DNA from: Vreelandella sedimenti
GTDB taxonomy: Bacteria > Pseudomonadota > Gammaproteobacteria > Pseudomonadales > Halomonadaceae
DNA length: 64,000 nucleotides
Direction of reading: 5' to 3'
NCBI RefSeq assembly: GCF_013416325.1
Contig: NZ_JACCGK010000014.1
Span: 1-64,000, forward strand
Shown here in pieces: positions 43,063-62,132 of the stretch. Both the position numbers and the translations under genes were made by a program. Each line of letters starts with the position of its first letter. The first letter of the stretch is position 1. Below the pieces are notes generated by a model. That model saw only the letters and a program-made list of their open reading frames with translations, did no database searches and was not told where the DNA came from.

Positions 43063-43722
43063 CTATTCGCGTTGTCGATAAAGTCCGTCCTGCGTAATGG
43101 CCAATTCAACGGCTTCTGGCAGTAAATAGCGCACGCTTTTCCCGGCCTCCAAACGCTCGCGGATATACGTTGCCGAGATCGCCATCAGTGATGGCAGTTC
43201 CAACGGCAGATAGCCGCCGCAAGGCCGATGCATCAATGCGTCTACGCTATCGACTCTGCGATGCGCCACCAGTTCCATTAATGATTCCGGTAACGGATCG
43301 TCATAACCCGGTCTGGCAATCACCACTAGATGAGCAAACTCAAACAAGCGCTCAGGCTGGTGCCACTGGGCGAGCCGCAAGAAGGCATCAAAACCAATCG
43401 CCATCACCAGACGGGCCTGTTCGCCAACTTCCGCACGCAGCTCAGCCAGTGTATCGACGCTATAAGAGGGGCCGTCACGGCGCAGCTCGCGGTCATCGGC
43501 GATCAGCCCGGGCGTCGCACCGATACCCGCTTCTAATAGCGCCAACCTCTGTGTCGCCGAGACTTGGGGTCGCCCGCGTAGCGGTGGCTGTTGAGCCGGT
43601 ATCATGTGTAGCCGATCAAGCGACAGCGCCTCATGCAACTCTACCGCGCTGCGCAAGTGCCCCAGATGAATAGGGTCAAAGGTGCCGCCTAACATGCCGA
43701 TACGCTGCTCCGTTTGACTCAT
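43063..43722 (-). CDS. nadD: Nicotinate-nucleotide adenylyltransferase
   Basis: 219 residues. It adenylates nicotinate mononucleotide for NAD synthesis. The nucleotidyltransferase motif GTFDPIHLGH lies near residues 13-22 and ISATYIRERL near the C-terminus. ATG preceded by AGGGTGG; 9 bp after proA. In E. coli nadD follows holA directly; here it is in another block. Confidence 0.97.
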   Translation of the reverse strand: MSQTEQRIGMLGGTFDPIHLGHLRSAVELHEALSLDRLHMIPAQQPPLRGRPQVSATQRLALLEAGIGATPGLIADDRELRRDGPSYSVDTLAELRAEVGEQARLVMAIGFDAFLRLAQWHQPERLFEFAHLVVIARPGYDDPLPESLMELVAHRRVDSVDALMHRPCGGYLPLELPSLMAISATYIRERLEAGKSVRYLLPEAVELAITQDGLYRQRE

Positions 43723-43731
43723 GCCACCACC

Positions 43732-45039
43732 CTATTCACGTACCTGGCCATCGCCAAATACGACGTATTTCTGAGTGGTTAGCCCTTCCAAACCAACAGG
43801 CCCACGGGCGTGAAGCTTGTCGGTTGAAATTCCGATCTCAGCGCCAAGCCCGTACTCAAAACCATCGGCAAACCGAGTAGAGGCATTAACAATCACCGAA
43901 CTGGAGTCGACTTCCGCCATAAAGCGGCGTGCGAGTGAATAATCCTGGGTGACAATCGCATCAGTGTGGTGAGAACCGTACTGTTCAATATGGGCAATCG
44001 CTTCATCGATACCATCGACCACTTTGATTGCCAGTACAGGGGCCAAATACTCGGCATACCAATCGGCTTCTTCAGCAACTGCCGCCTGTGGCAACAGTGC
44101 CTGCGTACGCTGGCAGCCACGCAGTTCAACTTCATGTTCGGCATAAGCGCGGGCCAGCTCCGGCAGCAGCAGGTCAGCAATCGGCGCATCAACCAGCAAC
44201 GTTTCCATGGTATTACAGGTGCCGTAGCGATGAGTTTTCGCATTGACCGCGATGGCTAGCGCTTTGGCGGGATCAGCAGTGGTATCGATATATACATGAC
44301 AAACACCGTCGAGATGTTTGATAACCGGTACGCGGGCATCACGGCTGATACGCTCAATCAACGACTTTCCACCGCGGGGGATAATCACGTCGACATATTC
44401 CGGCATGCTAATCATTTCACCCACCGCCGCGCGATCAGTGGTGGCGACCACCTGCACACTACCCGCTGGCAGGCCTACATCAGCTAACCCTGCTTGAATA
44501 CAGGCACTAATGGCGGCATTTGACTGGCTGGCTTCCGACCCGCCGCGCAAAATACAGGCGTTACCCGACTTCAAACATAGGCTGGCGGCTTCCAGGGTCA
44601 CATTGGGGCGCGACTCGTAAATAATCCCGATGACGCCCAGCGGTACGCGCATTTTGCCCACTTGGATGCCGCTAGGCCGATAACGCATATCGCCAATTTC
44701 GCCCACCGGGTCGGGTAAGCCCGCTACCTGCTGTAGCCCTTCAATCATGGCGTCGATACGCGCGTCATTCAGCGCTAAGCGATCCAATAGCGCGCTTTCC
44801 AAACCGCTCTCGCGGCCACGCTGTAAATCCTCTGTGTTGGCATCCAGTATTTTGGCTCGCGCATCGGCCAAGCGCTGCCCCATAGCCATCAGCGCACGGT
44901 TTTTCAACCCGGTATCCGCCCGCCGCAGTTCACTGGCGGCGCGTCGCGCAGCTTGCCCCAAGGCCTGCATGTAGGCGGGCACATTCCCGGCAGTTAAGTG
45001 CTGATGGGCCTCGTCTTGGAACGGTGTTGAAGCGCTCAT
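43732..45039 (-). CDS. proA: Gamma-glutamyl phosphate reductase
   Basis: 435 residues. NADPH-dependent second step of proline synthesis. The aldehyde-dehydrogenase-like fold shows [21 protein letters not shown], the catalytic Cys in [11 protein letters not shown] and the C-terminal [17 protein letters not shown] with GGAG six bases upstream. Probable first gene of the long minus-strand cluster. In halophiles proline is also an osmolyte, but the sequence gives no sign of special regulation. Confidence 0.97.
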
Positions 45040-60987: not shown

Positions 60988-61038
60988 CTAAAATCTAGGC
61001 AAAGCTAAAATCTAGTAAAACTCATATCTAGTAAAACT
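60988..61038. repeat. Short near-tandem repeats at the ompW 3' end
   Basis: CTAAAATCTAG occurs at 60988-60998 and 61005-61015, and ATCTAGTAAAACT at 61010-61022 and 61026-61038. The last copy enters the ompW stop codon. It looks like a slipped or expanded sequence of low complexity. Confidence 0.7.
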
Positions 61039-61634
61039 TAGAAGCGGTAAGTAACACCACCGCCAATGGTAACGGGTTCGATGTCAACTTCACCACCGAC
61101 GTTAATATCTGCGTTCACGTCAGCGTAGCTTGCGTAACCATTGAGCATAATATTATCAGTCACGGCCAGATCAACGCCTACTTGGCCGATCGCGCCGTAG
61201 CTTTCATCAACATTCACTCCACTCGGCTCGCCAGAGAAACGTGTGTAGTTTAGGCCAGCACCAACGTAAGGCTGTACACGTGAATCCAAGCCACCCATCG
61301 GGTAGTAATTCACGAGTAGATTAACAGGCAGACGATCAACACTACCCACATCGCCTGAAGCAGAGGTGTTCAGATCGTGCTCGAACTTCTCAGAGCTGTT
61401 GAGTTCAACGCCTACCTTATCAGTAAACAGGTAACCTGCACCAAAGGTGAAGCCACGAGCGCTCTGCACGTTCAGTGAATCACCATTCAGATTGCCATTA
61501 CCTGAACCCGTATCCGTTTGGGCAACACCACCACGAACGAATACATCGCCAGCGTTATAAGCGAGAGCCGCCTAGCTTGCCAGTGCGAAACCGGCAGTGA
61601 TTACAGCAGCAGAAATCAGTTTCATATTACTCAT
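61038..61634 (-). pseudogene. ompW: OmpW-family outer-membrane protein interrupted by an in-frame amber codon
   Basis: From the ATG at 61634 (AGGA eight bases upstream) the frame encodes 198 codons with a single TAG at codon 21 (61572-61574). Around it the sequence reads FALAS-stop-AALAYNAGDV, the end of a signal peptide, so the stop probably replaced a Gln or other codon in an intact leader. The rest is a normal OmpW beta-barrel: VFVRGGVAQT, YLFTDKVGVEL, and the terminal aromatic (TYRF) of an outer-membrane protein. All 3' codons are open, so the loss looks recent, or the codon is read through, or it is a sequencing error. Confidence 0.85.
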
Positions 61635-62132
61635 AAGGGTCATCCTCTATGCAGCGCGCAGTTCCTTGCGCTTGGGGATTGCGGTACTTGCTATCCAACT
61701 TTCCTGTACAGGGTATAGTATACGAACACTGTTTCCAAATTGCTTGTAAAATATTGTTATAAGAAACTGAACCCTGATAGTTTTCTAATATAAAATCCGG
61801 GCACAAAAAAAAGTCCCCCGAAGGGGACCAGGTGGAGCACGCCAGCTCACTCGGTTTGTTGCTACCAGCCGGTAGCAACATGGATGAAGAAGGAAAAGAA
61901 GCCAGATAGTTAATTACGCCTCTCTATTCACTCATCCTTTGCCATATACATTGCGATCTGCGTGCCACTTTTTTAAATATCATTAAAAATCATATAGTTA
62001 ACAAAAAACCACTTCACTGGCATCAACCTCCGACGCACTGCAGCAAACAAAATGCACCAGCATTGCGCACTTTGAGGTCTTTTTGCATCACAAAGCATCA
62101 TATGCGTTTGTTTACGCTTCGGAATCCTCAGA
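61635..62132. other. 498-bp intergenic region before ompW
   Basis: No gene. It holds the ompW promoter region (near 61700-61760, with a GTATA-G-TATAC palindrome but no convincing hexamer pair), a terminator at 61805-61828, a 9-bp hairpin at 61858-61879 (GTTGCTACC and GGTAGCAAC around a 4-nt loop) and then A/T-rich sequence up to the stop of the dehydrogenase. Nothing else recognised. Confidence 0.6.
61805..61828 (-). terminator. Intrinsic terminator of the dehydrogenase transcript
   Basis: GTCCCC (61813-61818) pairs with GGGGAC (61823-61828) around CGAA; on the minus strand eight T follow (61812-61805). It lies about 305 bp after the dehydrogenase stop. Confidence 0.8.

Follow-up and report, generated by a model that had tools for sequence, protein, structure and literature searches.

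Does an OmpW-family gene of Vreelandella sedimenti, interrupted by one amber codon early in its frame, represent a lost gene, an error in the assembly, or a gene that is still read through? The locus lies in the window analysed here (the whole stretch of 64,000 nucleotides), on a 158-kb contig (C8) of a 5.06-Mb draft genome. The draft consists of 61 contigs; its completeness is rated at 100% and its contamination at 0.21%. The most likely reading, to which we assign a probability of roughly 0.8, is that a dispensable gene was recently inactivated by a nonsense mutation.

The interrupted frame and its family

The OmpW-family frame runs on the minus strand for 198 codons plus a stop and terminates in ...TYRF followed by TAA (Table 1). 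Its TAG codon is preceded by MSNMKLISAAVITAGFALAS and followed by AALAYNAGDVF, and no other internal stop was found, in agreement with the original observation of a single in-frame amber codon. A hydrophobic N-terminus and the C-terminal Phe were noted by eye, and the TAG cuts the putative signal peptide. A restart downstream of the TAG was considered and rejected, because the earliest in-frame ATG, GTG or TTG lies past the signal peptide. Under the loss reading, translation should halt within the signal peptide once 20 residues have been made; the outer-membrane barrel would therefore not be made, and the gene would be a young pseudogene.

The part of the protein after the stop matched the Pfam OmpW family (PF03922) with 91.4 bits, and the intact orthologue in the nearest relative (G075) matched it with 97.8 bits, against a cut-off of 24. 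The same intact orthologue scored 112.2 bits against the NCBIfam OmpW equivalog (NF008202), far under its cut-off of 287, so 'ompW' is used here as a family label for the broken gene. The identity proposed originally thus holds at the level of the family and does not extend to the equivalog. Sequence comparison also matched the intact orthologue to the solved OmpW, OprG and AlkL. Like these small outer-membrane barrels, the broken gene shows a PF03922 match across the mature protein, but it differs from them in falling below the NF008202 cut-off and in being interrupted by a stop.

Table 1. Features of the interrupted locus (coordinates within the window)
Feature	Coordinates	Strand	Basis
OmpW-family gene, interrupted at codon 21	61038..61634	-	Frame and Pfam PF03922 match
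Internal TAG (codon 21, in frame) within the signal peptide	61572..61574	-	Sole row with an internal stop in the comparison of 82 genus genomes
20 codons still translatable, most of the predicted signal peptide	61575..61634	-	Read from the sequence
First later in-frame ATG/GTG/TTG, a GTG at codon 56, beyond the signal peptide	61467..61469	-	Starts a 143-aa ORF
Upstream region, 126 bases	61635..61760	-	98.4% identity to G075, gap-free

Divergence from relatives and distribution of the stop

The nearest relative found, G075, which we infer to be Vreelandella titanicae BH1, aligned at 95.6% identity in one alignment spanning nearly the whole window. Its codon at the aligned position is CAG, consistent with the single C-to-T change that had been proposed. 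The coding sequences differed at 17 codons, with 15 synonymous differences, one missense difference (codon 93) and the stop. The predominance of synonymous differences, together with the Pfam match, indicates that the frame is more than a chance one. The differences are few and mostly synonymous, which suggests that the protein was conserved until recently and that a loss would be recent. The 126 bases upstream of the gene carried 2 mismatches (98.4% identity). For the whole 498-base intergenic stretch (window 61635-62132), the alignment of 527 columns contained 29 gap columns, all outside the 126 bases adjoining the start, and 10 mismatches. Near 61810-61840 in this stretch, a hairpin with a T run, resembling a terminator, was also noted by eye. 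The proposal of a recent loss without other damage is in line with the private stop, the nearly unchanged remainder of the protein and the well-conserved upstream region.

The genus comparison covered 82 genomes, the source genome included, with a close copy defined by at least 68% protein identity. Close copies were present in 62 of the 82 genomes; 61 of them had no internal stop, and the source genome alone had one, the TAG. A DNA search returned 30 loci, namely the broken gene and 29 relatives, all 29 of which carried a sense codon at the site (Gln in 27, Ser in 2). A TAG-specific pattern for the region matched one of 275 family genomes, the source genome. A version of this pattern with CAA or CAG in place of TAG matched 95 of the 275 and so was able to find the site. 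Some of its matches are likely other sequence, as they include three genus genomes that lack a close copy; a reversed control pattern matched 3 of 275. The TAG is private to the source genome among the genomes compared. The stop is absent from the orthologues and the frame is otherwise intact, the combination that defines a recent nonsense pseudogene. It had been suggested that intact codons in all related strains would speak against a loss. This does not hold, since a recent private loss predicts intact relatives.

A second OmpW-family gene without an internal stop was found on another contig (C18) of the same genome, and it is 48% identical to the intact orthologue of the broken gene. A close copy of the broken gene was absent from 20 of the 82 genus genomes, 15 of which are at least 90% complete. 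With an intact second family gene in the genome and 20 of 82 genus genomes free of a close copy, a loss is not surprising. The patchy presence in the genus suggests that the gene is dispensable and that its loss is tolerated. However, at only 48% identity the second copy may not replace the broken one.

Assembly error and readthrough as rival readings

The main rival is that one base of the draft assembly is wrong, which would leave the gene intact in the living strain. In its favour, the remainder of the gene looks to be under selection (15 synonymous differences to 1 missense against G075), the stop is present in no relative, and the genome is a draft of many contigs. However, the high completeness and low contamination of the assembly argue against it, and there was no general excess of broken frames: 139 conserved ORFs of G075 were matched on the contig, and of 9 flagged, 2 were accepted as real disruptions, with four flags dismissed by position alone. 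We consider such an error unlikely.

These counts came from a search for other lesions. Within the window, 58 ORFs of at least 100 aa on the corresponding G075 stretch were compared, and 6 were flagged, one being the OmpW-family gene. Two of the other flagged ORFs lay before the aligned part and one overran the window end. The flag at 43170-43874 (+) lay opposite other ORFs and was not accepted as a lesion, and that at 52738-52412 (-) was short, contained two stops and had nothing to support its status as a gene. The OmpW-family gene is the only lesion accepted within the window. Along the whole contig, four of the nine flags were inspected, yielding one real frameshift and three flags upstream of a likely start, and the four dismissed by position had a stop in codon 3, 5 or 8, or in codon 243 of 245. 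In the reverse direction, 5 of 136 own ORFs on the contig were flagged against G075, and two of them were inspected; in the window, the two frames flagged on the G075 side had the stop before a likely start. Wider decay was rejected, with two accepted disruptions among the 139 conserved ORFs. Outside the window, at C8:92491-93113, a frameshift near 92985-92991 relative to G075 interrupts a transporter-like gene, which we take to be LysE/RhtB-like.

If an amber suppressor or some near-cognate tRNA read through the TAG, a certain amount of OmpW would be made, and the intact and conserved frame after the stop is compatible with such readthrough. However, no amber anticodon (CTA) was found among 61 tRNA matches (ARAGORN, with 150 of 207 first-look candidates scored), a list that is incomplete, as Ile-GAT, Ala-TGC and Leu-TAA were unseen. 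A suppressor could have escaped such a list, which we regard as unlikely. The tRNA-Leu with the anticodon TAG is an ordinary tRNA. Pyrrolysyl-tRNA synthetase (PylS) over its cut-off was absent from the genome, the two matches scoring 21.4 and 20.6 bits against 178; in the control genomes this search gave matches in 13 of 14 and passed the cut-off in one. Furthermore, among the contig's 136 conserved own ORFs, 28 end in TAG, indicating that TAG works as a stop, and the amber codon of the OmpW-family gene is shared with no relative compared. The suggestion of suppressed readthrough thus finds little in its favour, and we consider it extremely unlikely; a full-length product is probably not made. 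Five consecutive tandem tRNA-Glu/tRNA-Gly pairs were observed outside the window, at C14:45520-46875.

On the preferred reading, a recent, lineage-specific nonsense mutation would have struck one of two OmpW-family genes in a strain close to V. titanicae. Three parts of this reading are ones that we infer: that the base is real, that no product is made, and that dispensability of the gene makes its loss tolerable.

Possible causes of the loss

One candidate origin of the C-to-T change is a CCWGG site of the Dcm type in which methylcytosine was deaminated, and the aligned site in G075 indeed reads CCAGG. In the window, 20 of 382 inner C positions of CCWGG read T in this genome, compared with 986 of 34,849 C positions overall; in the opposite direction the count was 10 of 366. 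The contig gave 50 of 1040 (4.8%) for CCWGG versus 2847 of 82,418 C positions overall (p 0.02), with a lower count of 32 of 1004 in the opposite direction; these counts come from nine aligned blocks covering about 148.5 of 158 kb, and the directions are unpolarised, as no outgroup was used. However, the matched context DCWGG was equally high on the contig, at 120 of 2608 (4.6% versus 4.8%), and stood at 113 of 2596 in the opposite direction in the aligned blocks. The excess seen in the window is thus matched by the DCWGG context and the hotspot is not supported, although a weak difference remains both from all C and between the two directions.

Cytosine-5 methylase matches occurred at two places in this genome (C4 and C10) and nowhere in G075, which would favour methylation of the site, but neither methylase was identified as a CCWGG enzyme. 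Some cytosine-5 methylase matches were also found in the four other relatives searched. The C4 match of the present genome, at C4:261-1244, outside the window and close to a contig end, is a 327-aa cytosine-5 DNA methylase that scored 103 bits against TIGR00675 (cut-off 100.65); G075 had no PF00145 match. No Vsr was found in a search of the genome, and a literature search for methylcytosine amber hotspots returned nothing. Within the loss reading, we hold a methylation-driven origin to be very unlikely.

A second candidate cause, suggested by analogy, is that a phage or bacteriocin with the barrel as its receptor selected for the loss. The accessible text of PMC12300545 offers a precedent in ompW of V. 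cholerae and phage VP5: strains of phage type 6 carry an 11-bp ompW deletion and are resistant to VP5. The accessible part of PMC10132071 provides another in ompW of Serratia and phage LC53, a T4-like phage there requiring ompW. As described in PMC12300545, phage type 6 resembles the present case in that an OmpW-family gene is privately inactivated and the nearest relatives are intact. It differs in that the lesion there is a deletion accompanied by resistance, whereas here it is a nonsense codon known from sequence alone, and in that the Vreelandella genome has a second family copy. The type of lesion also speaks against phage selection, since the same text reports substitutions in only 3 of 56 laboratory V. 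cholerae mutants obtained under VP5, most being deletions (37) or insertions (16). Selection of this kind seems to us quite unlikely as the cause. The fuller proposal, in which the barrel was lost under phage or bacteriocin selection, the mutant indicates a Vreelandella receptor and the second OmpW-family gene covers the usual role, is likewise improbable. Among the matches listed in the literature on OmpW with Halomonas, no title concerned a Halomonas OmpW mutant.

Among the causes considered (drift, culture, and phage or bacteriocin selection), near-neutral loss needs the fewest assumptions. The broken gene adds one more case to an ordinary kind of loss. Either it should be annotated as a pseudogene or its base should be checked, and it has little importance beyond annotation. 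According to the accessible part of PMC5786537, OmpW takes part in carnitine uptake in V. cholerae and thereby aids its growth under hypersaline conditions. In view of that role, if the stop is real, the strain would be a natural null for an OmpW-family copy in a halophile and may serve as a modestly useful comparison.
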